From the NCBI GenBank assembly GCA_030602615.1, contig JAUVZM010000011.1, forward strand, positions 1 through 55,793: a stretch of 55,793 bases of DNA, given 5' to 3'. The DNA comes from a bacterium (GTDB taxonomy: Bacteria; Armatimonadota; Zipacnadia; Zipacnadales; Zipacnadaceae). The notes beneath the pieces are model-generated. The model saw only the letters and a program-made list of their open reading frames with translations. It was not told where the DNA came from and searched no databases. Made by a program: the position numbers and the translations under genes. Every line of letters starts with the position of its first letter. Position 1 is the stretch's first letter. Below are positions 19,597-48,935 of the stretch, in pieces.

Positions 19597-20793
19597 CTAG
19601 TGGGAAACTTCGGTCTGGGCCTGGTGTGGCTCAGCTACCTGCAATATACGAACTCCCAGTTGGTCTTCGACGACCACGATCTCGCCACGAGCAACCAGCT
19701 TATTGCCAGCCAGAATCTCTACCGGATCATCTAGGCTGTGATCCAGGGTCACCACTGCGCCGGCGCGAAGCTCCTGCAGTTCACCCAGCGGCATAACAAC
19801 TCGTCCCAGCCGGATTTGAATCTCGACCGGAATCCCGTCCGGCGACTCCAGGTTCGTCTCACCTGTGCCTGTGGCCTCGGGCGTTTGGGCTGAGGATAGT
19901 TGCTGCTCAGATTCGGGGACACTGTTGGGCTGCTCGCTCATAGCTGTGTGGCTCCCGCTGTGAGTATTTGCCGCCAGTAAGCGTACACTAAGCTGACCGC
20001 CTTGGGCACCGGCCTGGCCGGCGGCGACCGGCCGGCCGGCGGCTTGCAGTTGCACAATCATTTTTTGGCTGTTGGGTAGCAGCAGGACGTCCCCACGATC
20101 CAGCGCCTGCAGTTCGGTCAGCTCCAGAGATGGAGCAGGCAGGACAGCCTCCAGGCACACCGGAAGGGCATGCAGTTGGCTGCGCTTGAGCCTGGCCGGG
20201 TCGGTCTCGGCATTCGCTGCGAGGTTGTTGCGCCAGGCTGCGGTCGGCGCTGCCATCACTATGTCGTGCCGGCCGCCGCTTGCTCCCAGGGGGACTGCCA
20301 CGGCAAAGCTTTCCGAGGCAAGCGGGGACTGCGGGGCATCGGCAGATAGCATCTGGTGTCGGCCACGGCTGCCAAAAAGCGTACCCAGGACGCTGCCGGC
20401 CAGTGCTTCCAGATATGGCTGCAAGATGGCCAGGTCCGTCCGGGTCAATTCTTCGGAGGATAGCTCCAGCTTCGTCGAGTATCCCAGCAATGGGCCGACG
20501 CAGCGTACTGCCAGTGCTCGGGGCATCTTTGTTACCATCTGGCTGGAACCGCCGAAGCGCGAGACCAGCGTAGGCCCGGTGGCTTGTTGTATCTCCTGTA
20601 ATTCAGACTGCTGCCAAAGCAACTGAGGGGTGTCGGTGGTGGCAGCCGTGCCCAGGTAGCTGCGGCTGACGCGGCGCAGCGCCTCGGTAAGCGCCAGCAA
20701 TTGGGCCTGCAGCACCTGTCGCTCCCGGCTATCTAGCTGCCAGGCGGCAGGGAAGCGGGCCCGCTGATATGTGGTATCAGGTGGCAGTAGCAT
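19597..20793 (-). CDS. FliM-FliN fusion (two SpoA domains), C-ring/sorting-platform protein
   Basis: A 398-residue protein. Residues about 25-195 resemble the CheC-like middle domain of FliM (LTEALRRVSRSYLG... LGGxLEALAGSVL-type pattern). A first SpoA domain lies at about 205-275 and a second at about 320-386 (PVEIQIRLGRVVMPLGEL... DDPVEILAGNKLVARGEIVVV), joined by a Ser/Gln/Glu/Pro-rich linker of about 40 residues. FliM and FliN, or SctQ in type III secretion, form the cytoplasmic C-ring. The usual FliM N-terminal CheY-binding peptide (LSQDEIDALL-like) is absent. The ATG at 20793 is chosen because a start at 20934 would run deep through the FliJ-like gene; as chosen it overlaps it by 17 bases. 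Last gene of the operon. Confidence 0.8.
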   Translation of the reverse strand: MLLPPDTTYQRARFPAAWQLDSRERQVLQAQLLALTEALRRVSRSYLGTAATTDTPQLLWQQSELQEIQQATGPTLVSRFGGSSQMVTKMPRALAVRCVGPLLGYSTKLELSSEELTRTDLAILQPYLEALAGSVLGTLFGSRGRHQMLSADAPQSPLASESFAVAVPLGASGGRHDIVMAAPTAAWRNNLAANAETDPARLKRSQLHALPVCLEAVLPAPSLELTELQALDRGDVLLLPNSQKMIVQLQAAGRPVAAGQAGAQGGQLSVRLLAANTHSGSHTAMSEQPNSVPESEQQLSSAQTPEATGTGETNLESPDGIPVEIQIRLGRVVMPLGELQELRAGAVVTLDHSLDDPVEILAGNKLVARGEIVVVEDQLGVRILQVAEPHQAQTEVSH

Positions 20794-21256
20794 TGAAGTG
20801 AGGATTGTTGGTGACTTGCACGGTGCGCACCAGGTCATCGAATCGCCTCTGGCGGCTGCGCCGGGCTGCTTGGGTGGCTTGCTGCTGGAGCCGGGTGATA
20901 GCCTTTTGGGCCGCCCGCCGCAGTTGGGCGGCATTGACCAGCTCGGCCTGTCTGCGGGAGGCCCTCTGCTTGAGCCGCTGATGTGTGCGCTGGATTCGGG
21001 TTATGCGCCGGTCCAGGTCGGCCAGTGCGCGCTGGCATCGCTGGTGCCAGTCAACGGTATCTGGGACCTGTCTACCTGCGTCGTTACGCAAAGTGGTCTG
21101 TTCCCGGTGCAACTTGGCCAGTCTGGCCTCGGCTGCGTGCTGCAGCCTGCGACATATCGCCGCTCGTCGCTGGCATAGCTGTTCTCGCTCTGCACGGTGA
21201 TTCAGGATTTTGTCCATCCGGGCGATACGTTTGTTCATCGGGCCTTTCTCAGGCAT
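20777..21256 (-). CDS. fliJ: FliJ/SctO-like coiled-coil protein
   Basis: A 159-residue, highly charged, Arg/Gln-rich, almost wholly helical protein with heptad patterns throughout (RLQHAAEARLAKLHREQ, KAITRLQQQATQAARR). FliJ-family stalk proteins have little conserved sequence, so the call depends on size, coiled coil and position right after the FliI ATPase. FliJ acts as the central stalk of the ATPase hexamer. An internal ATG at 21238 with GAGAAAGG just before it is an alternative start; the ATG at 21256 overlaps the end of fliI by 8 bases. Confidence 0.65.
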   Translation of the reverse strand: MPEKGPMNKRIARMDKILNHRAEREQLCQRRAAICRRLQHAAEARLAKLHREQTTLRNDAGRQVPDTVDWHQRCQRALADLDRRITRIQRTHQRLKQRASRRQAELVNAAQLRRAAQKAITRLQQQATQAARRSRQRRFDDLVRTVQVTNNPHFNATAT

Positions 21257-22586
21257 TCATTAGGTCTGTCAACCATTGGCGGGTGCGGTCGGAGGGCGAA
21301 TACTCGTCAGGACGCTGCTGCAGGAACTGGTTCATCTCGGCGCGCAGCGCCAGGGCCCGGTCTACGCGGGGGTCGCTGCCTCGGGTGTACGCCCCTACAT
21401 CTATCAGGTCCCGGGCCTGATTGCGGGCTGCCACCAACGAGCGGAACTGAGCCGCGGCCTGGCGGTGGTCTGGCTCAACGACATCGGCCATCAGCCGCGA
21501 GACCGAGCGGGTGATGTCAATAGCCGGGTAGTGGTCAGCTTCGGCCAGTTGTCGGGAGAGCACGATGCGCCCATCGAGAATAGCAGTGGCGGCATCGCCG
21601 ACCGGGTCATAAATGTCGTCCTGTTCGACCAGCACAGTGTAAAGGCCTGTTATTGTGCCTTGCTGAGTAGCCCCGGCCCGTTCCAGAAGCTTGGGGAGCA
21701 TAGTGTACAGTGACGGCGGATAGCCGCCGGTGGTGGGCATCTCTCCGGCTGCCAGGCCGACTTCACGCTGGGCGCGAGCCAGGCGGGTCAGCGAGTCCAT
21801 CAGTAGCAGAACATTGGCACCGCGCTGGCGGAAATACTCGGCAATGGCGGTAGCGGCCAGCCCGGTATGCACCCGCAGCAGCGGGGACTGGTCGGAGGTA
21901 GTCACCACGACGACGGATTTGGCCAGTCCCTCGCCCAGATCGCGCTCCAGGAAATCGAGAACTTCGCGCCCGCGCTCGCCGACAAGTGCAATTACGTTGA
22001 CATCGGCACTACTGTGACGGGCAATCATCCCCAGCAGCACGCTCTTGCCGACGCCAGCTCCGGAGAAGATGCCCAGCCGCTGTCCCTGGCAGCAGGTGAG
22101 CAGGCCGTCAATGGCCCGTACTCCCACCCACAGTGGCTCAGTTATCCGGCGACGCTTCAGTGGCGGTGGCGGAGCGTTTTCCAGAGCCTGATGGCTCTGG
22201 ACTGGGATGGGACCTTTGTCATCCAGTGGCCGGCCAAAACAGTCTACTACCCTCCCCAGCATCTGTGGCCCCGTGCCGATCTGCAGTTGCTGTCCGATAG
22301 CCACCACGCGGCAGCCCGGCTCGACGCCTCGCAGCGAGCCGAGCGTCAGCAGAATGGTATGATTCTCGCGGAAGGCCACCACCTGGGCGTAGATTGGATC
22401 ATCGCCGCCGTCCGGCTGCAGCGTACACAGTTCACCGATCTGCGCAGCCGGGCCTCGGGCCACGATTGTCAACCCGGAAATCTCCACTACCGTTCCGGCT
22501 CGCCGGAACCGGCTGGCTGTCCGGGCTTGCTCAACCAGGTGCTCAAATTGCTGGACTTGCTTGTCGATGATCGGTTGTATAGACAT
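21249..22586 (-). CDS. fliI: FliI/SctN-type ATPase of flagellar or type III export
   Basis: A 445-residue ATPase related to the F1 beta subunit that energises or primes substrate entry in flagellar and type III export. Walker A is SGAGVGKS; the family motif ALVGERGREV follows; Walker B is LLLMDSLTR; then RAQREVGLAAGE, GYPPSLY and ILDGRIVLSRQLA. Length and motifs are fully preserved, so it is probably active. It sits directly between fliH-like (20-base gap) and fliJ-like (8-base overlap) genes, the usual order in flagellar operons. Confidence 0.93.
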   Translation of the reverse strand: MSIQPIIDKQVQQFEHLVEQARTASRFRRAGTVVEISGLTIVARGPAAQIGELCTLQPDGGDDPIYAQVVAFRENHTILLTLGSLRGVEPGCRVVAIGQQLQIGTGPQMLGRVVDCFGRPLDDKGPIPVQSHQALENAPPPPLKRRRITEPLWVGVRAIDGLLTCCQGQRLGIFSGAGVGKSVLLGMIARHSSADVNVIALVGERGREVLDFLERDLGEGLAKSVVVVTTSDQSPLLRVHTGLAATAIAEYFRQRGANVLLLMDSLTRLARAQREVGLAAGEMPTTGGYPPSLYTMLPKLLERAGATQQGTITGLYTVLVEQDDIYDPVGDAATAILDGRIVLSRQLAEADHYPAIDITRSVSRLMADVVEPDHRQAAAQFRSLVAARNQARDLIDVGAYTRGSDPRVDRALALRAEMNQFLQQRPDEYSPSDRTRQWLTDLMNA

Positions 22587-22606
22587 AAAATCTGTTGCTG
22601 GTGCGA

Positions 22607-23215
22607 TTATTGCTCTATGTATGCTGGTAGGCTTCGGTGAATCTGGGCCAGTTGGGTGGGGATGTCGGCATCAATGATTTCATAGTCGCTTTCCACAATA
22701 CAGCCTCCGCGTTCAATGCTGGAGTCACCGATTACGCGCAGGTTGGAGAGCCGTCCCAGCAGCGTTTCGTCGGTTTGGAGGATGTCTTGCACGACCGGCC
22801 GATCGTCGGGATGGACGCGCACGTGCAGTTCTCCGTGGCAGGCCAGGTCCTCCAGAGCGGCTTTGACGGTGCGTTCGATAACCCGGCGGTCCTGGCGAAT
22901 CTCGGCGGCGACGATGCGCCGGGCGATGGCGATAGCCAGACGGACAAGATGGGGCTGGAGCTCCTCCAGCAGGCGCTCCTTGTCGTGGGCCAGTTGGGTG
23001 GTCAGGTCATGAAGCAGGTTTCTGATGCGCGCCCTCTGCGCTGACCCATCCTGCAGGTCAGCAGAGGTAGCCGCGGTTCCGTCACTGCCTGCCGGGTTGT
23101 TCGGGGGGGTGGTTTCGTGACCAAAGCCTGATTCGAATCGCACCGGCCTTACCCACGGCCCCCTCTGGTCTATGTCCGCTTTTTTCAGCAGCCGTTCACT
23201 CACTGTGATCACCAC
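22607..23215 (-). CDS. fliH: FliH/SctL-type ATPase regulator
   Basis: A 202-residue protein with the FliH pattern: a variable N-terminus, a helical middle (about 65-110: LTTQLAHDKERLLEELQ, LVRLAIAIARRIVAAEI) and a C-terminal alpha/beta domain (RVHPDDRPVVQDIL, VIGDSSIERGGCIVES, IDADIPTQLAQI). FliH forms the spokes linking the ATPase to the C-ring. The ERGGCIVES motif is strongly typical of FliH/SctL. It overlaps the FliF-like gene by 20 bases. The start is uncertain: GTG at 23215 or GTG at 23203; neither has a strong ribosome site. Confidence 0.87.
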   Translation of the reverse strand: MVITVSERLLKKADIDQRGPWVRPVRFESGFGHETTPPNNPAGSDGTAATSADLQDGSAQRARIRNLLHDLTTQLAHDKERLLEELQPHLVRLAIAIARRIVAAEIRQDRRVIERTVKAALEDLACHGELHVRVHPDDRPVVQDILQTDETLLGRLSNLRVIGDSSIERGGCIVESDYEIIDADIPTQLAQIHRSLPAYIEQ

Positions 23216-24191
23216 CGTTGCCGAGGGTATTCTGGCTTGCCGTCAATTTAGTGCGCAGGGCCTCGATGAATGAGACTAAGATTTCTTCCCGCGTCGGTCG
23301 CGTTGGCTCAGATAAGCTCCCAGGTAGAGCATTCATCTGTTGCCGGACAGCGGCCGCTGTTTCCGGGTTGGGCACGTGCTGCAGGAGGGCGGCTACCACC
23401 TCAGGACGTTCACCGTCGGCCAGTGAAGTGATCTGGCCGGCGGTTAACCCACTGAGAAACTGCTCGAGCTGGCGTGGTCGGCTGGCCGCAGTCTCGCCGC
23501 TCGTTTGGGCCTGCTGGCTGCCTCGCCGAGCCTGCCGCAGGTACAGGGCGGCCAGAGCGATAGATAGCAGTGCTGCCAGCCCCCAGACCACTGACGGCAT
23601 TTTGAAGGGAGTCTTTGGCTCAGCAAGTGGATCGGTGAGCGCTGGCAGGCTGGAGGTCATCATAGCTACTGCTGCGGTCGGTTGCCCTTTGGCGTAGAGG
23701 ACCTCGCCGCGGCTGTCGATGATTAGTAGGTCGGCCGGCTGTAATCCAGGGACGGTATGCAACACGAAAGTAACCAGGTTGTCCAGCCAATTATCCGGCA
23801 GTATAGAGGCAGGCTGGAACCGTAATTGCAGTGAGAGGCCTGGGGAGCTGGCAGTTTCCGTCTCTGGAGGGCTTACAGCGAAGGTAGCCTGAGCGGCGGT
23901 GATGTAGTCATAGCCGCCCAGGGCACTTTCCAACAGTTGCGTGGTTTCGGCTTGCCTGCGCCGGGTGGTGCCGGGGAGAGGGAGGGATAGCACATTTGTT
24001 GGCAGCGTCGCTCGCGAGCCACGCTTATGCTCTGCGCCATCAGACGAGGTTAGTGCAGTCGGCCCACGGTAGCCCTGGTATAGTGCTACTCCCAGGGCAA
24101 CAGCTACGATGACACTCACAATGGCATAAGCCATCCGCGAGTGTTGAGAAAGCGCCTGCCACCAGCGAAGTAGGTCGCCCAGTGCCTCCAT
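23196..24191 (-). CDS. Reduced FliF/SctJ-like ring protein with FliG-like tail
   Basis: A 331-residue protein, much shorter than FliF (about 550). Helix 1 (19-39) and helix 2 (199-218) flank a periplasmic region containing one ring-building motif of the FliF RBM2/SctJ type (about 75-170; LLESALGGYDYITAAQATFAV, VTFVLHTVPGLQPADLLIIDSRG). RBM1 seems replaced by a short Ser/Pro-rich stretch, and the RBM3 collar domain is absent. The cytoplasmic tail (about 240-290: QFLSGLTAGQITSLADGERPEVVAALLQHVPN) resembles an armadillo motif of FliG, without FliG's C-terminal torque domain. No separate fliG is present. First gene of the five-gene operon. Confidence 0.72.
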   Translation of the reverse strand: MEALGDLLRWWQALSQHSRMAYAIVSVIVAVALGVALYQGYRGPTALTSSDGAEHKRGSRATLPTNVLSLPLPGTTRRRQAETTQLLESALGGYDYITAAQATFAVSPPETETASSPGLSLQLRFQPASILPDNWLDNLVTFVLHTVPGLQPADLLIIDSRGEVLYAKGQPTAAVAMMTSSLPALTDPLAEPKTPFKMPSVVWGLAALLSIALAALYLRQARRGSQQAQTSGETAASRPRQLEQFLSGLTAGQITSLADGERPEVVAALLQHVPNPETAAAVRQQMNALPGSLSEPTRPTREEILVSFIEALRTKLTASQNTLGNGGDHSE

Positions 24192-24298: not shown

Positions 24299-24327
24299 AG
24301 TATATCATATCTCCCCAGTGTTGTCAA
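24299..24327 (-). promoter_or_regulatory. Near-perfect sigma-70 promoter of the fli-like operon
   Basis: Minus strand TTGACA (24322-24327), 17-base spacer, TATACT (24299-24304). It lies about 108 bases upstream of the FliF-like ATG. Flagellar middle operons often use sigma-54 or sigma-28; here the match is to the housekeeping type. The 294-base gap to larE otherwise holds no gene. Confidence 0.7.
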
Positions 24328-27424: not shown

Positions 27425-28438
27425 TCAGCAGATGCGGGGCAGTATCTCGCCGGGGGGCATCTCGACGATGCGGATGGTTCCCAGAGGCGTGCGCAGATGC
27501 ACTTGGGAGCGGTCGGCGCTGGTTACTTGGCCGATGATAGCTGCCTGCTGACCGCCGTCGCACGATTTCATAATAGTCAGGGCCTCGTCGGCCACCGATC
27601 CGTCCACGAAGGCCAGCACCTTCCCCTCGCAGGCCACCTGCAGCGGATCAAGCCCCAGTATCTCACAGACGCCAGCCACCTGCGGCAGTATGGGCAGTGC
27701 CGCCTGGTCAGTCTCCATGGTTACGCCGGCCTGAGTGGCGATTTCGTTCAGCGTGCTGGCCAGCCCGCCTCGGGTTGGGTCGCGTAGGGCGTGGACTTTC
27801 TCGCCCAGCTCGTCAATGAGTTTGCTGGTGATCCCGGCCACTGGTGCTGAGTCGCTCAGTATCTCGCCACTGACGTCAAGCTCCTCCCGCGCACACATCA
27901 CCGCCACACCGTGGTCAGCGATAGTTCCGTTAATGAGCAGCGCATCGCCGACTGCCACTCGCTTGGGGTCAATGTTTGTCTGGGCTGGGACCACTCCCAG
28001 CCCGGAGGTATTGACGAACAACCCATCAGCGGCACCGCGCTCAACCACTTTGGTGTCACCGGTGACGACAGCCACGTCGCAGCGCTCGGCGGCTTCCGCA
28101 ACCGATTTAGTTATGCGGTGTAGATCCTGTGTCGGGAAGCCTTCCTCGATGACAAACGCCAGCGAGATGAACTCGGGAACCCCGCCCATCATTGCCACAT
28201 CGTTGACCGTGCCGTGGACAGCCAGGCTGCCGATGTCTCCGCCCGGGAAGAACAGCGGCGAGACAGTAAACGAATCGGTAGTGAACGCTATCCTTGCCTC
28301 GCCGATGGTTATAACGGCAGCATCATTCAGGGCCTGGCCGGCGCGCTGGAGCAGGGGGGCGAACTGCTGGGCGATAAGCTGCTGGGAAAGCAGCCCCCCG
28401 GCGCCGTGGCTGAGGGTAATAAGTTCGGGCTTCTTCAT
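27425..28438 (-). CDS. hypE: Hydrogenase maturation protein HypE (carbamoyl dehydratase)
   Basis: A 337-residue AIR-synthase-like protein that dehydrates the carbamoyl group on its C-terminal Cys to thiocyanate, giving the CN ligands of the [NiFe] site. It starts ELITLSHGAGG and ends in the signature LPRIC, whose Cys is the carbamoyl acceptor. The ATG at 28438 is preferred over 28483 because the family normally begins just before the LxHGxGG motif. It is the last gene of the hyp operon, separated from hypD by a gap of about 150 bases containing REP-like palindromes. Confidence 0.94.
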   Translation of the reverse strand: MKKPELITLSHGAGGLLSQQLIAQQFAPLLQRAGQALNDAAVITIGEARIAFTTDSFTVSPLFFPGGDIGSLAVHGTVNDVAMMGGVPEFISLAFVIEEGFPTQDLHRITKSVAEAAERCDVAVVTGDTKVVERGAADGLFVNTSGLGVVPAQTNIDPKRVAVGDALLINGTIADHGVAVMCAREELDVSGEILSDSAPVAGITSKLIDELGEKVHALRDPTRGGLASTLNEIATQAGVTMETDQAALPILPQVAGVCEILGLDPLQVACEGKVLAFVDGSVADEALTIMKSCDGGQQAAIIGQVTSADRSQVHLRTPLGTIRIVEMPPGEILPRIC

Positions 28439-28507
28439 AGGCTGCTGAGAGTCTCCACTGATATATTGAGCAGGACCGGTCATGGCTGGGCGGCACCAGA
28501 AGTGCCG

Positions 28508-28532
28508 GTAGGAGCGGCATTCCTGCCGCGAC
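28508..28532 (+). repeat. REP-like palindrome A with GTAG head
   Basis: A 25-base element starting GTAGGAGC, with a hairpin GCGGCA-TTCC-TGCCGC (28514-28529) and ending GCGAC. Its first 24 bases are identical to the element at 32898-32921 read on the other strand. It lies in the hypD-hypE gap, paired with an inverted relative 18 bases away. Confidence 0.75.
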
Positions 28533-28550
28533 TACTCTTGCTCCTACAGC

Positions 28551-28575
28551 GTCGGGACAAGAATGTCCCTCCTAC
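28551..28575 (-). repeat. REP-like palindrome B, inverted partner of A
   Basis: Read on the minus strand it starts GTAGGAG, forms GGGACA-TTCT-TGTCCC and ends CGAC. Both arms of the stem differ from element A with compensating changes, so pairing is kept. A and B in inverted orientation resemble a REPIN. Between them, 28540-28547 is another GTAGGAGC head on the minus strand without a stem. B reaches into the last codon of hypD. Confidence 0.75.
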
Positions 28576-29657
28576 GAACCGTATGATTGGTATTGGTAAA
28601 CCGCGGCGCAGGCTCCCTCGGAGGAGACCATGCACGGGCCAACCGGATGATCCGGCCGACAGGCAGTCCCAAACAGAGCGCAGTCGGTCGGCTGAACCGC
28701 ACCGCGCAGGACCGCCCCACAGTCGCAGCCGGGCGGCTCCGGGACCGGCTTCAGATCCAGGGCGAAGCGCTTCTGGGCGTCAAGCTGGCTGTATTCATCG
28801 CGGATGCGCAGGCCACTGGCGGGAATCTCGCCCAGTCCGCGCCAGCGTGTGTTGGTGACCTCGAAAACTTGATTCATCTTGGTTAGCGCGACGGGATTGC
28901 CCTCAGGTTTTACCACACGATCGTATTGAATGAGCACCTGCGGGTTATTCTCGCGGTGCATCCGCGCCAACATATAGACCGACTGCAGCACATCCAGTGG
29001 CTCAAAGCCGGCCACCACGCAGGGGATACCCTGCTCGGCCAGGGGCTGGTAAGGATATGAGCCAATGATCGCGCTGACGTGGCCCGGGCACAGGAAGCCG
29101 TCAATCTGCACGTCGGGCTGGCCGATGAGGGCTTGCATGGCGGGAGGAATAAGCCGGTGAGCGACGAGTACGCTGAAGTTGGTCAGGCCCAGTTGGCTGG
29201 CCTCACTGATGCAGATGGCTACGCTGGGCGCTGTGGTCTCGAACCCCACGCCCATAAAGACGATTTCATCGTCAGGATTTTCTTGCGCCCACTCGACCGC
29301 CTGTATTGGCGAGTATACTATCCGCACCTGCCCCCCCTCGGCCTTCACCTCGCTCAGGCTCCCGTCACTGCCGGGTACCTGCATCATATCGCCAAAAACC
29401 GCCAGCCAGATACCCTCGCGGGCTAGCTCGATAGCGGCGTCAATCACCTCCGGCGGGGTCACGCACACCGGACATCCCGGCCCCGAGATAAGCGTGAGCT
29501 GCGCGGGCAGCATCTGGGTCAGCCCATAGCGAGCGATGACGTGCGAGTGGGTACCGCAGACCTCCATAAATGCCAACGGCTGGTCAACAGCTTCATGTAT
29601 TTGCTGGGCCAGCCGGCTTGCCTTCTGCGGATTGTGGAACTCCTCTACGTACTTCAT
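28572..29657 (-). CDS. hypD: Hydrogenase maturation protein HypD
   Basis: A 361-residue [4Fe-4S] scaffold protein that, with HypC, assembles the Fe(CN)2CO unit of [NiFe] hydrogenase. Family motifs: FMEVCGTHSHVIARYG, ISGPGCPVCVTP, VGFETTAP, GFLCPGHVSAIIG, and a Cys-rich C-terminal part with CDCGAVLRG and CALFGTAC. The ATG at 29657 overlaps the hypC stop in an ATGA, which supports it over a start at 29678. The C-terminus runs about 15 residues past the usual end, partly through REP-like sequence. Confidence 0.95.
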   Translation of the reverse strand: MKYVEEFHNPQKASRLAQQIHEAVDQPLAFMEVCGTHSHVIARYGLTQMLPAQLTLISGPGCPVCVTPPEVIDAAIELAREGIWLAVFGDMMQVPGSDGSLSEVKAEGGQVRIVYSPIQAVEWAQENPDDEIVFMGVGFETTAPSVAICISEASQLGLTNFSVLVAHRLIPPAMQALIGQPDVQIDGFLCPGHVSAIIGSYPYQPLAEQGIPCVVAGFEPLDVLQSVYMLARMHRENNPQVLIQYDRVVKPEGNPVALTKMNQVFEVTNTRWRGLGEIPASGLRIRDEYSQLDAQKRFALDLKPVPEPPGCDCGAVLRGAVQPTDCALFGTACRPDHPVGPCMVSSEGACAAVYQYQSYGS

Positions 29658-29887
29658 CCCTGTCCGAAGCTCTCCCACCAGCCGATCTCGTCCAGCATCT
29701 CCAGAGTTCTGTGCGCTTCTTCTTCATCTACCCTCTCGATGGCAAAGCCGGCGTGCACCAGCACGTAGTCGCCGAGCTGGGCGTCGGGCAGCATATCCAG
29801 GCGCGTCTTTACCTGGCTGCCGCCAATCTCGGCGATGCCCCGGTTGCCATCTATTTCAATCAGTCTGCACGGCAGCGCAACACACAT
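29654..29887 (-). CDS. hypC: Hydrogenase maturation chaperone HypC
   Basis: A 77-residue chaperone. It begins MCVALP, with the essential Cys2 that binds the iron unit or the hydrogenase large subunit, and contains GDYVLVHAGFAIERVDEEEA, the family's beta-barrel signature. It sits between hypF (2 bases upstream) and hypD (4-base overlap), showing translational coupling. Confidence 0.96.
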   Translation of the reverse strand: MCVALPCRLIEIDGNRGIAEIGGSQVKTRLDMLPDAQLGDYVLVHAGFAIERVDEEEAHRTLEMLDEIGWWESFGQG

Positions 29888-29889
29888 AG

Positions 29890-32184
29890 CTATCTGTTCC
29901 TCGCTGCAGCTACCACTGCCTGCCCCAGCGCCAGGCCGCCGTCGTTGGGCGGCGTTTCTTTGTGAATAAGCACTGCAAAGCCTGCTTTAGTAAGCTCGTG
30001 GTGCAACCCAACCAACACCAGCTCATTCTGGAAAGTGCCGCCAGAGAGCGCTACCTGGCCGATATTGGTCTCGTCAGCCACTTGCTGAACTGTGTCAGCC
30101 AGCATCTGCACAAATGCATTGTGGAAGCGAGCCGAAATCTGGCCTATCGCAGTACCCGCCTGCAAGTCATTCACGATTTCGTGGAACATCGGGCCGGGCT
30201 GCATAATGAGCATATCATTGTCGCGAGTGATTTCGTAGCTGTAGGCCTCTTCAGCTTCGGTAGCGGCTGCTTCCAGCATTATGGCTGATTGGCTCTCGTA
30301 GGCCTCCACCGGGCACAGTCCCACCAGCGCTGAAACTGCCGAAAACAGCCGGCCGGCACTGGAGGCCAGCGGACAGTTTATATCCTTCTCAATCATTTGC
30401 TTGAGCACGCGCCAGGTATCTGTGTCCAGCGTCTGACAGAACTTAATGTCGGCGTCCAGTAGCCTCTGGCAGTCCAGGTATACTGCGGCCATCCGCCAGG
30501 GCTGCCTGATGGCCTGCTCGCCGCCGGGCAGTGGGACGTAGTCGAGATGGGCTGCGCGTGTGTAATCATCGTAGCTGCTGACCAGCACCTCGCAGCCCCA
30601 TACAGTGCCGTCGGCTCCATAACCGGTTCCGTCACAGGCTACTCCCAGCACCGGTCCCGCTACGCCGTGTTCAGCCATGCAAGCGGCGATGTGGGCGTGA
30701 TGGTGCTGGACAGTGACCGTCTCCAGGCCCTGCTCTTTGGCAAACTGCTGAGCATAGCGCGTGCTCAGGTAGCTGGGATGCAGGTCGTGGGCAATCAGAT
30801 CGGGAGTGACGCGCAGTACGTCCTGCAGATGTTCGACGCACCACTTGAAATATTCCAGCGTCTCGGCGTCCTCCAGGTCACCGATATGCTGGCTCAAGAA
30901 AGCATTATGCCCCTTAGTAAGGCAGAAAGTATTCTTAAAATGTCCGCCGACGGCCAGGGTCTTGCCCAGGTCTCGCTCCAGCTTGATGGGAAAGGGAACA
31001 TATCCGCGGGCCCGCCGCATAATAATTGGCCCCAGCGGGGTGGGGCGGACCACCGAATCGTCGCAGCCGATGTTGATTTTTCGGTTATGCAGCAGAAATC
31101 CGTCGGCGATATGGCCCAGGCGCTGGCGGGCCTCGTCGTTCTGGGTGGTCAGCGGTTCTTCGCTGAGGTTGCCGCTGGTCATCACCAGCGCCAGCAGGCG
31201 GTCGTCGGCCAGCAGTAGATGGTGCAGCGGCGTATACGGGAGCATAGCGCCGTGATACTTACTGTCCGGAGCTACTGACGGCGCAATAGTCGAGTCTTTT
31301 TGCATCAGCAGTACGATTGGCCGGATCGGGCCGCTCAGCAGCGCTCGCGCCTCGTCGGTGACCTCGCAGTAGGTTTGAATGTCTGCCAGGGATGCAGACA
31401 TTATCGCCAGCGGCTTCTGCTCGCGGCCTTTGCGGCGGCGCAGCTTCTGGACTGCCTCTTCGTTGGTCGCATCGCAGGCCAGGTGAAAGCCGCCCAGGCC
31501 CTTGATGGCAACAATCCCTCCGGCCACCAGCCGCTCGATAGCTTCTTGCACGGCCTTATCTCGGGTGTAGTGCTTATCACCCACTACCAACTCCACATGC
31601 GGGCCGCAGACCGGGCAAGCATTGGGCTGGGCATGGTAGCGGCGGTCGTCAATGTCGTCGTACTCGCCCTGGCACTGCGGGCACATCACAAACGGCTGCA
31701 TGGTGGTGTTGGGCCGATCGTAGGGAACAGTTTCGATTATGGTAAAGCGTGGCCCGCAGTTGGTGCAATTGATGAACGGGTACTGATAGCGGCGGTCTTC
31801 AGCATCAAATAGCTCGCGGCGGCAATCCTGGCAAGTCGCCACGTCGGGCGAGAGCAGAATGGTGCCGCCGGCGGCCTCGCGGCTGGCGGTGATGACAAAT
31901 TGGGAGTCGCCGGCAACAGGAAGCTCGCTGGTGGACATATCTTCGATGCGGGCGATGGGCGGCTTTTCTTTGGGCAGGTCCTTGATGAAGGCTGTCACAT
32001 CTCCGGGATTGCCTTCCGCCTCGATGACCACGCCGCCGGTGAAGTTGTGTACGCTGCCCGCAATATTGTGCTTCTGAGCCAGCCGGTGGATAAAGGGGCG
32101 GAAGCCGACCCCCTGGACGATGCCGGTGATGGTAATCTGGCGCCTTATGCGCTGGTCAGTTGTGAGTGCTGCTCGGTCAGCCAC
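29890..32184 (-). CDS. hypF: Carbamoyltransferase HypF
   Basis: A 764-residue protein that makes the thiocarboxamide on HypE from carbamoyl phosphate. Domains in order: acylphosphatase-like (GIVQGVGFRPFIH), two zinc fingers (CQDC...CTNC and CPQC...CPVC), a YrdC-like nucleotide domain (AIKGLGGFHLACDA, RKGREQKPLAIM) and a Kae1-like domain (VQHHHAHIAACMAEHG, GTGYGADGTVWG, SGGTFQN). The GTG at 32184 has GGAG 8 bases upstream; a GTG at 32190 is also possible. Either way it overlaps the end of hypB by about 40 bases. Confidence 0.95.
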   Translation of the reverse strand: MADRAALTTDQRIRRQITITGIVQGVGFRPFIHRLAQKHNIAGSVHNFTGGVVIEAEGNPGDVTAFIKDLPKEKPPIARIEDMSTSELPVAGDSQFVITASREAAGGTILLSPDVATCQDCRRELFDAEDRRYQYPFINCTNCGPRFTIIETVPYDRPNTTMQPFVMCPQCQGEYDDIDDRRYHAQPNACPVCGPHVELVVGDKHYTRDKAVQEAIERLVAGGIVAIKGLGGFHLACDATNEEAVQKLRRRKGREQKPLAIMSASLADIQTYCEVTDEARALLSGPIRPIVLLMQKDSTIAPSVAPDSKYHGAMLPYTPLHHLLLADDRLLALVMTSGNLSEEPLTTQNDEARQRLGHIADGFLLHNRKINIGCDDSVVRPTPLGPIIMRRARGYVPFPIKLERDLGKTLAVGGHFKNTFCLTKGHNAFLSQHIGDLEDAETLEYFKWCVEHLQDVLRVTPDLIAHDLHPSYLSTRYAQQFAKEQGLETVTVQHHHAHIAACMAEHGVAGPVLGVACDGTGYGADGTVWGCEVLVSSYDDYTRAAHLDYVPLPGGEQAIRQPWRMAAVYLDCQRLLDADIKFCQTLDTDTWRVLKQMIEKDINCPLASSAGRLFSAVSALVGLCPVEAYESQSAIMLEAAATEAEEAYSYEITRDNDMLIMQPGPMFHEIVNDLQAGTAIGQISARFHNAFVQMLADTVQQVADETNIGQVALSGGTFQNELVLVGLHHELTKAGFAVLIHKETPPNDGGLALGQAVVAAARNR

Positions 32185-32801
32185 TGGCACAGCTCCGTTA
32201 TACCCTCGCCGGTGGTACAGGAGGTGGCGAACTGGACTGCCTCCGGTTGAAGCTGCTGGCAGAGGTTCCAGAACTTCTCGGTATCAAATGGTGAATGGGG
32301 AATCAGGTCAAGCTTGTTAAGGATAATTCCCTGGCAGGTGCGAAAGGCCACCGGATATTTCTCGGGCTTGTCATCACCTTCAGGAATGCTACAGACCACA
32401 AAGCGAAATTGCGCGCCCAGCTTGAAGGCTGCCGGGCAGACCAGGTTGCCGACGTTCTCAATAAGGAGCAAATCAGTGCTGGCCAGGTCCATTTTGTCAA
32501 TAGCCCGTCGCACCATCGGGGCATTCAGGTGGCACATCCCGCCGGTATTGATCTGAAAGGCCTCGGCGCCGGCTGCTTCAATGCGCTCGGCATCGTTGGC
32601 GGTAGCCACATCGCCCTCGATGACCCTGACCGTCAGCCCCTTGAGTTGCTGAATGACCTTTTCCAGAATACTGGTCTTCCCACAGCCGGGGCTGCCCATC
32701 AGATCCACAGCCAGCACGTTATGATCTGCCAGGAGCTGCTGGTTTTCCTGAGCGGCCGCATCGTTGTCGCCCAGCACGTCGGTCATCAGTTCTACTTGCA
32801 T
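32145..32801 (-). CDS. hypB: Hydrogenase nickel incorporation GTPase HypB
   Basis: A 218-residue GTPase that with HypA delivers nickel to the hydrogenase large subunit. The P-loop is GSPGCGKTS (36-44); the metal-site segment GGMCHLNAP, ENVGNLVCPA, and the guanine motif NKLDLI are visible. It lacks the N-terminal CxxCGC nickel site and any His-rich stretch, so it is a simple, non-storage form. First gene of the minus-strand hyp operon. Confidence 0.95.
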   Translation of the reverse strand: MQVELMTDVLGDNDAAAQENQQLLADHNVLAVDLMGSPGCGKTSILEKVIQQLKGLTVRVIEGDVATANDAERIEAAGAEAFQINTGGMCHLNAPMVRRAIDKMDLASTDLLLIENVGNLVCPAAFKLGAQFRFVVCSIPEGDDKPEKYPVAFRTCQGIILNKLDLIPHSPFDTEKFWNLCQQLQPEAVQFATSCTTGEGITELCQWLTEQHSQLTSA

Positions 32802-46879: not shown

Positions 46880-47788
46880 TCAGTCGTCCTTGTCCGTTTT
46901 CCAGCGGTCGTGTAGCCACAGCCACTGCTCAGGGTAGCGGCGGACCTGTTCACTCATAGCATCATTGATCTGCTGAGTCAACTGCTTAGTGAACTGGTCG
47001 CGATCGTCGGTTTGCGGCAGAGGAAGCGGCGGTAAGATCTGGCTGACGAAGCTGCCATCGGGCAGGCGGCGGGTGAAGAAGGGAACCAGGGCGCAGCCGG
47101 TGTGCAGAGCCAGGACGGCTGGGCCGGCGGCTGTGGCAGCGCGACGTCCCAGAAACTCGAGCTCGAGGCCCCTTCCGGCAGCATGCTGGTCGGGGACGAT
47201 GCCCAGCCCGCGATTGTCACGCAGGATTCGGATCATTGCGCGCACGTCCTCCCGGCCTAGCACCTCGATGTTGTGGTGCTGGCGCGCCTGGTTGATCAAT
47301 CGGGCACAGACTGGTTCATTGGAGTCGCGGGCCAGGACCGTAACCGGAAATCCCTCAGCGGCGAAGCGGGCCCCGCCCAGCTCCCAATTCCCGAAATGGG
47401 CAGTGAAAACCACGGCACCCCGGCCCTCAGCGAAGGCCTGATGAAGGTGCTCAGTGCCCTCCAGGGAGACAAGTGCCTTCACTTGCTCAGGAGTCATATA
47501 GCGCATCTTGAATAGTTCGATCATCGTCTTGCAGATGTTGATGGTTGACTGTAGTACGATGCTGCGCCGCTGGGCCGCAGAGAACTGATCTCCGAAAACC
47601 TTGCGGATATTCTCGCGCGCCAGGCGCTGGCGGGAAGGGCATAGTAGATATATAAGGTAGGCCAGACCAGTGGCGATGACCCGCAGCCAGCTCAGTGGCA
47701 GGATGCGGGCTAGCCCGTCCACGGTGCGGACCACATTGCGGAACATCCAGTAGCCAATTCGCTTGCCCAGCGGGCGTCGCTCAGTCAT
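46880..47788 (-). CDS. lpxL: Lipid A biosynthesis acyltransferase (LpxL/HtrB family)
   Basis: A 302-residue late acyltransferase that adds a secondary acyl chain to the Kdo2-lipid A precursor at the inner face of the inner membrane. N-terminal membrane helix, catalytic HxxxxE in TAHFGNWELGG, then IVPDQHA and the FFTRRLPDGSF segment. Last gene of the LPS operon; overlaps lpxK by 8 bases. Confidence 0.92.
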   Translation of the reverse strand: MTERRPLGKRIGYWMFRNVVRTVDGLARILPLSWLRVIATGLAYLIYLLCPSRQRLARENIRKVFGDQFSAAQRRSIVLQSTINICKTMIELFKMRYMTPEQVKALVSLEGTEHLHQAFAEGRGAVVFTAHFGNWELGGARFAAEGFPVTVLARDSNEPVCARLINQARQHHNIEVLGREDVRAMIRILRDNRGLGIVPDQHAAGRGLELEFLGRRAATAAGPAVLALHTGCALVPFFTRRLPDGSFVSQILPPLPLPQTDDRDQFTKQLTQQINDAMSEQVRRYPEQWLWLHDRWKTDKDD

Positions 47789-48935
47789 AGTGAGACTCTC
47801 CTAGGGCCTGCCGGGCGCGATCCACCACTTCGGCAACTGCCTGCTGGCCACTGATTATCTGCAGTTGGCACGCGACGACCACTACTGGTATGTCCAACTC
47901 TCGATCCGGCCACTTCACGGCGTCTTTGGCAGTGATAGCGACAAAGTCGGCCTGCTGGGCGCGGGCAGCCGCTTCGATCTCTCGCAAATCCTGCACCGTG
48001 TAGTAATGATGGTCAGCATAGCGCCGAGCAGTCACTTCAGCGCCAAGCCGGCGCAGCGATTGCTCAAAAGACTCAGGATTGCCGATTGCTGAGACTGCCA
48101 GCACCTGTCTCGCGCATATCTGCTCTAATGCTACCGGCTGCCCGCGGAGCATACGAAGCCCGGTGATTTGATGTGTTGTTTCGACGACTGGCAGTTCCTC
48201 GGCGCTGTGGCGCACAAGCTTTTTCAGTCGGGAAAGTTGGGCTGGGTCGGCCTGGTCGGCGTGCGTAAGCCAAATCTGGTCGGCGCGGCGCAAGTGGGCA
48301 ACAGGTTCCCGCAGATAACCGGCTGGGAAAAGCTGCTGGTGGCTTATGTCAACCGTCGCATCAATTAGCACTATGTCAATCAGCCTATTCATCCGGAAAT
48401 ACTGAAAGCCGTCGTCAAGTATCACGATCTGAGCGTCACTGTCTTCGGCCAGCCGGGCAATAACTGCCTCGCGGCGCTTGCCAACTGCAACTGGCACCCC
48501 TTCGAGCGTCTGCGCCAGCAGGCAGGCTTCGTCGCCTGTCTCGGAAACGCGCCACCCCGTGGTGGCTTCGTCGCCCCAAAGAATAACTGGCTCGCGCCCG
48601 ATCTGACCTCGGTAGCCGCGCAGGACTATCGCTGGCTTGATGCCAGCGTGCTGCAGGTGGCGGGCCAAGAAGGCGGCGGCAGTGGTCTTGCCGGTGCCGC
48701 CCATAGTCAGGTTGCCGATGCTAATGGCAGGCAGCGCCGGGCAGGTGCGCCGCTTCCGGCCGCTGGTATACAGCAACAAGTTACCCTTAAGTCCCAACCA
48801 ATATAGCCCGGAAACCGCCTGCAACAGCAGTCGGCTGATGCTGGCTGACAGGCTGGTATCCTGACCGGAAACTGTCTTTTCCCACCAGTGAGACAAAGGC
48901 GTCGATTGCCTGGGGGCCTGGTGGTTTTTCATCAT
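47781..48935 (-). CDS. lpxK: Tetraacyldisaccharide 4'-kinase
   Basis: A 384-residue P-loop kinase that phosphorylates the 4' position of the lipid A disaccharide. Walker A SIGNLTMGGTGKTT, the ILDDGFQY motif with the catalytic Asp pair, and the ITAKDAVKW segment are clear. The N-terminus carries the short helix before LGLKGNLLLY. Overlaps waaA by 4 bases and lpxL by 8. Confidence 0.94.
   Translation of the reverse strand: MMKNHQAPRQSTPLSHWWEKTVSGQDTSLSASISRLLLQAVSGLYWLGLKGNLLLYTSGRKRRTCPALPAISIGNLTMGGTGKTTAAAFLARHLQHAGIKPAIVLRGYRGQIGREPVILWGDEATTGWRVSETGDEACLLAQTLEGVPVAVGKRREAVIARLAEDSDAQIVILDDGFQYFRMNRLIDIVLIDATVDISHQQLFPAGYLREPVAHLRRADQIWLTHADQADPAQLSRLKKLVRHSAEELPVVETTHQITGLRMLRGQPVALEQICARQVLAVSAIGNPESFEQSLRRLGAEVTARRYADHHYYTVQDLREIEAAARAQQADFVAITAKDAVKWPDRELDIPVVVVACQLQIISGQQAVAEVVDRARQALGESHYD

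Follow-up and report, generated by a model that had tools for sequence, protein, structure and literature searches.

Flagellar-type ring and ATPase genes of a Zipacnadaceae bacterium probably serve a second, non-flagellar exporter coupled to a sigma28/FlgM switch

What does a flagellar membrane ring with its cytoplasmic ATPase complex do in a stretch of DNA that carries no export gate? The question is raised by five minus-strand genes (F, H, I, J and MN) at positions 19597-24191 of a 55,793-nucleotide stretch, hereafter the window, which is contig JAUVZM010000011.1 (C54) of a 2.45-Mb draft genome from the family Zipacnadaceae, phylum Armatimonadota (assembly GCA_030602615.1; 83 contigs, ~93% complete; G000). 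An initial annotation took them for a self-contained operon without any export gate, perhaps a degenerate or simplified type III-like export machine. Here we report that the rest of the machine is encoded at other loci of the same genome, that relatives keep nearly all of it in one operon, and that the window genes probably supply ring and ATPase to a second, non-flagellar inner-membrane exporter, working in late-substrate mode and coupled to a sigma28/FlgM switch. We found no published description of this system in the open-access literature.

The window genes and their promoter are as follows, with ratios of non-synonymous to synonymous substitution (dN/dS) taken against four congeners.

24299..24327, minus strand: sigma70-type promoter TTGACA-N17-TATACT upstream of F, read directly
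23196..24191, minus strand: F, short membrane-ring protein with RBM2 and FliG-middle profile matches (dN/dS 0.29-0.56)
22607..23215, minus strand: FliH, ATPase stator (PF02108, 2e-24; dN/dS 0.18-0.27)
21249..22586, minus strand: FliI/SctN export ATPase (FliI/YscN family, 552 bits against a cut-off of 380; dN/dS 0.11-0.14)
20777..21256, minus strand: FliJ-like stalk protein (PF02050, 4e-4, below cut-off; TIGR02473, 1e-6; place in the conserved operon)
19597..20790, minus strand (listed open reading frame to 20934): MN, FliM/SctQ-FliN fusion with two SpoA domains (PF01052 twice)

F barely matches single-sequence profiles. A profile built from 17 aligned relatives matches RBM2 of FliF in solved M-rings (2e-15), and its C-terminal part separately matches the FliG middle domain (1.9e-4), the GERPEV motif of F being aligned with the EHPQ region of FliG. 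The structural model is of moderate confidence (predicted local distance difference test score, 71) and has an ordered helix-strand-strand-helix-strand core that Foldseek assigns to the FliF RBM2 ring. Judged by these matches, F is a short FliF fused to the FliG middle domain, with an N-terminal transmembrane helix, RBM2 at ~76-167, a second transmembrane helix at ~200-228 and a cytoplasmic FliG middle (ARM_M)-like segment at ~240-285; profile comparison found no RBM1, RBM3 or FliG C-terminal (torque) domain in it. FliI has both the P-loop GAGVGKS and LVGERGRE, and the identity of FliJ is weak but recognisable in both its Pfam and its NCBIfam match. MN scores 104.7 bits against the SctQ model TIGR02551 (cut-off 100.8) and is two separate genes in several relatives; its start is most likely 20790, giving 397 aa, because a 158-base overlap with J then disappears and the start agrees with those of relatives. 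The range of dN/dS over the window genes, 0.11-0.56, indicates purifying selection, and therefore that they are maintained. The promoter is kept in the relative G006 as TTGACA-N17-TATAAT. The initial annotation was thus right about these genes: all five are real and correctly named (H, I, J and MN by profile matches, F through its relatives), its "FliF(G)" and its view of ring parts condensed by fusion and loss hold, and the promoter is of the housekeeping type.

The missing parts lie elsewhere in the genome:

Contig C25: FlhA, followed by a FliA/WhiG-type sigma factor (260 bits against a cut-off of 190)
Contig C47: FliN, FliO, an inserted amidohydrolase, FliP, FliQ, FliR and a short FlhB
Contig C38: FlgM (4e-18)

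A complete export gate (FlhA, FlhB, FliP, FliQ and FliR) plus FliO is therefore encoded, with FlhB truncated. FlhA is of a distinct class, scoring 352 bits against an FlhA cut-off of 772 and 272 bits against an SctV cut-off of 692; FliP passes the FliP cut-off. Flagellar models outscore Sct models for FlhA, FliP, FliQ and FliR, and the two are about equal for FlhB. The amidohydrolase gene between fliO and fliP (L005:9994-10773) is inserted at the same place in the family member G011 (L083). The rod/hook family FlgB/C/E/F/G (PF00460), which gives 4-6 matches in most flagellated relatives, gave none in this genome or in the eleven other genomes that hold the second set without a flagellum, flagellin and MotA/MotB not having been searched for. 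The FliG C-terminal torque domain (PF01706), present once per flagellated relative with the exception of G042, was likewise absent from all second-only genomes. The absence of an export gate thus describes the window and not the genome, and the genes are not self-contained, the gate, FliO, the sigma28 factor and FlgM lying at other loci. The proposed lack of rod/hook-family proteins and of a FliG C-terminal domain extends to the whole genome, a normal complete flagellar set did not turn up elsewhere in it, and a simplified flagellum-derived export machine, with gate and ATPase parts kept, agrees with what was found.

FlhA proteins of 61 genomes fall into two classes, both full-length: flagellar (E <1e-200) and second (1e-94 to 1e-142). 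Across 291 genomes of the phylum, a profile (A1) gave full-length second-class FlhA 713-923 bits (571 for the outlier G032) and flagellar FlhA at most 593, and the second class occurred in five families (f1, f3, f5, f7 and f8) of one class. The second set occurs together with a flagellum in 15 genomes, including G001 of the window's own genus, and without one in 12, including the window genome. At nine loci from families f3, f5, f7 and f8 it forms one operon, F-H-I-J-Q-N-O-P-Q-R-FlhB-FlhA-sigma28, with no axial genes within it and with flanking genes that vary between families. The operon is partly split in family f1, where G011 retains F-H-I-J-Q-N-O-amidohydrolase-P together, and in the window's genus the same genes are spread over three loci. 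In FlhA, EVAARFALDALPG and F(Y)GAMDG are conserved throughout the class. In a scan of a genome collection with the FlhA alignment no second-class member was among the matches listed, the peptides conserved in the alignment being common to all FlhA; the matches served as named outgroups. In family f3 a conserved gene of unknown family lies on the opposite strand between fliP and fliQ (L086:10576-11412(-), L087:9190-10038(+), L088:9741-10709(-), L094:4488-5327(-)); the one tested had no Pfam match. Two f2 genomes without rod and hook hold fragmentary, very divergent FlhA and FliI matches (G015:C182, G015:C501, G025:C25, G025:C296), perhaps a further reduced form.

Where did the second set come from? 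Its presence beside an intact flagellum in 15 relatives makes it a separate duplicate and not that flagellum's remains. On the FlhA tree, built without SctV, the second class lies on one side of a branch with a Shimodaira-Hasegawa-like approximate likelihood ratio of 100, and flagellar FlhA of same-phylum genomes cluster with Fimbriimonadales, which points to Armatimonadota as the phylum of the window genome. FliI evolves more slowly than FlhA; on its tree the second clade (support 97) has the class's flagellar FliI as its sister (87), and the topology broadly follows families. Both trees were built without confirmed Myxococcales SctN or SctV. We take this, with moderate support, to mean that flagellar genes of the class itself were duplicated long ago, then inherited vertically and reduced, and that the flagellum was later lost in several lines.

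The truncation of FlhB bears most directly on how such a machine might work. The nine intact second-class FlhB proteins in the alignment are all 237-266 aa long and fall 14-20 residues short of the NPTH autocleavage site, against 350-400 aa for most complete flagellar FlhB of the same set. In the window genome the end is natural, because tRNA genes start 50 bases past flhB, and no separate FlhB tail was found, the genome having one FlhB-family match only. The natural truncation is close to a stop engineered at residue 258 of Salmonella FlhB: with that stop, or with the cleaved domain deleted, in cells lacking Flk and making more basal bodies, FlgM-Bla reached the periplasm although neither rod nor hook was present, and the hook protein FlgE was no longer exported once the cleaved domain had been deleted (PMC13060781, published as PMC13344023). 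It is mainly on these grounds that we propose a late-mode mechanism.

In this proposal the RBM2 part of F would form a small ring round the FliPQR/FlhB/FlhA gate, its FliG-middle domain standing in for FliG and seating a FliM/N-type ring. FliHIJ would bring cargo to the gate and FlhA would dock it. Lacking RBM3, rod, hook and the FliG C-terminal domain, the machine would make no outside structure and would not rotate; with nothing built outside, exported proteins would therefore reach the periplasm. It would be fixed in late-substrate mode because its FlhB is without the autocleaved C-terminal domain, a docking site for early substrates and a brake on late export. Departure of a FlgM-type cargo via FlhA would then free the sigma28 factor and turn on a small regulon of envelope genes. 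The window also holds an LpxK gene at 47781-48935 (PF02606, 2e-76); lipid A is therefore made and an outer membrane is present, which bears on the destination of exported proteins. At 27425-32190 lie genes resembling, by eye from translations, the hydrogenase maturation factors HypE, HypD and HypF.

The regulatory arm of the proposal draws on the distribution of FlgM, which was found in 27/27 genomes with the second set and in 0/7 class members with neither second set nor flagellum; of the genomes holding both systems, many carry two copies. In G042, flgM and the gene for an HD/GAF protein lie directly upstream of F. Sigma28-type promoters, all of them consensus-based predictions, precede flgM in many genomes. 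The total counts of a first motif search were uninformative because 15 matches stood against 12 in reversed controls; its signal lay in a fixed spacing (N15 in 11 of the 15, TAAAG in ten of those) and in the position before flgM. TAAAG-N14-GCCGAT then gave 45 matches in the twelve second-only genomes versus 21 for the reversed pattern, and 40 versus 12 in family f1. Two motif sites of the window genome (on C6 and C65) fell inside long open reading frames and were dropped. Its best site (G000:C2:38873-38897, minus strand; L270, about 13.7 kb) lies before a microprotein of ~50 aa that has a single hydrophobic stretch (ending AVNF or ASGF) and is conserved in six genomes (the others at L262, L248, L250, L179 and L190); in the genus, a thioredoxin-like lipoprotein comes next. 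The microprotein is a possible cargo or partner of the export system.

A further module was seen in the window's genus and not found in the window genome itself. In congeners, rpoN (sigma54) is divergent from a sigma28-driven flgM2 and a 111-118-aa helical protein (L265, L266, L267, L268, L269, L277, L278); the helical protein is missing from L278 only, a truncated contig, and an NtrC-type activator is convergent in L265, L266, L267 and L277. A3, of ~117 aa after flgM2, was considered as FlgN because it occupies the place of FlgN in flagellar operons, and this was rejected for want of a supporting Pfam, NCBIfam, PDB-sequence or fold match; we treat it as an unknown helical protein.

Several observations weigh against a late-mode exporter with a sigma28/FlgM switch. 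The late-locked state in Salmonella also required loss of Flk and raised expression, and its assembly was inefficient (PMC13060781, PMC13344023). The FlhA and FliI trees are quick searches, and the second-class branches on the former are long. The motif excess of 45 over 21 is modest, and the window genome has no sigma28-type promoter on flgM's own strand before that gene. Eight unlinked secretin-like matches in the window genome make exit through the outer membrane possible.

Among the alternatives, a complex that exports no cargo, whether an inner-membrane structure (a hat-like particle or the base of a nanotube) or a sigma28/FlgM switch only, would suit an operon that holds no conserved cargo gene, and hat-like structures related to the flagellar type III secretion system (fT3SS) exist, their function unknown (PMC9380563). 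We consider it rather unlikely, given that FliI is strongly constrained (dN/dS 0.11-0.14) with an intact P-loop, that EVAARFALDALPG and F(Y)GAMDG of FlhA are conserved across the class, that a pure regulator has no obvious need of an ATPase and a gate, and that the hat structure remained in the absence of FliF (PMC9380563).

Delivery across both membranes by an injectisome-type non-flagellar type III secretion system (NF-T3SS), its needle, secretin and effectors unlinked and overlooked, is unlikely too. The SctQ score of MN lies above its cut-off, there are the eight secretin-like matches in the genome, and FliO is also known from Myxococcota NF-T3SS (PMC12403147). Against this, FliP, FliQ, FliR, FlhA and FliI score higher as flagellar than as Sct proteins, FliI groups as sister with the flagellar FliI of its class, both regulators (sigma28 and FlgM) belong to flagellar systems, and FlhB is without its switch domain. 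No secretin was recognised in or beside the nine operon loci, where not every flanking open reading frame was profiled, and no needle, tip or translocon protein, all small and fast-evolving, was recognised in the operon.

A decaying flagellar remnant, the degenerate state that the initial annotation had entertained, is very unlikely: rod/hook and FliG C-terminal genes are absent and the genes are scattered over several contigs in the window's genus, but dN/dS is 0.11-0.56, gene set and order are the same over several families with conservation over five, and the set coexists with an intact flagellum in 15 relatives. An ordinary divergent flagellum with axial genes undetected or in assembly gaps is hardly credible, even with a draft of 83 contigs and with stators and flagellin outside the search, since the rod/hook model finds 4-6 members in most flagellated relatives and none in 12/12 second-only genomes, the FliG C-terminal pattern is the same, and neither RBM3 nor the FlhB switch domain is present.

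The non-flagellar, late-mode exporter thus remains the reading we prefer. For annotators, FlhA, FliI, FliA and FlgM alone do not imply motility. That the FlhB switch domain has been lost naturally provides an evolutionary test of what was claimed for it in 2026, a role in early export and a restraint on late export. Because parent flagellum and reduced copy coexist in close relatives, how the reduction proceeded can be followed directly.

How does the system compare with known machines? On gene content it is not a flagellum, having no rod or hook, no FliG torque domain and no FlhB NPTH domain, nor, judged by model scores, is its gate of the SctRSTUV clade that marks an injectisome. All its parts are nonetheless homologous to those of the bacterial flagellum, with FliP above the FliP cut-off and sigma28/FlgM control, and it differs further in a FliF cut to RBM2. 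The 'late-locked' Salmonella FlhB-deltaCCD mutants share nearly the same FlhB end point and the lack of rod and hook, with periplasmic export of a FlgM-type protein as the expected state (PMC13060781, PMC13344023); those are laboratory mutants, whereas the present truncation arose naturally and is fixed across families. Chlamydia likewise combines a few flagellar export proteins (FliF, FliI and FlhA) with sigma28 in the absence of a flagellum, but the reports there speak of at least three flagellar orthologues and not of a complete second gate, and a FlgM-like control is a matter of speculation (PMC2830194, PMC10597470). The hat-like structure is also in the inner membrane and tied to flagellar gate proteins; it is not made of FliF and is seen in species with an fT3SS, whereas the present system is a separate gene set (PMC9380563).

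A close parallel is the Myxococcales NF-T3SS (Abby and Rocha 2012, PMC3459982), which keeps export apparatus, ATPase and inner ring, is conserved and vertically inherited, and in its published set is without rod, hook, FliG, MotAB, secretin and needle. It differs in that here the FliI tree points to the class's own flagellum, sigma28/FlgM is kept and FliF(RBM2) is fused to FliG(middle); that FlhB here lacks its C-terminal domain may be a further difference. Our system would work like this secretin-less T3SS but appears to have a separate origin. The use of half a flagellum is an old question, to which the injectisome and the Myxococcales offshoot have so far been the main known answer. We put at about an even chance that the genes described here record a second, independent change from flagellum to secretion machine, apart from the injectisome lineage, with the apparatus locked in late mode by loss of the FlhB tail and coupling periplasmic export to sigma28 expression in non-flagellated bacteria.

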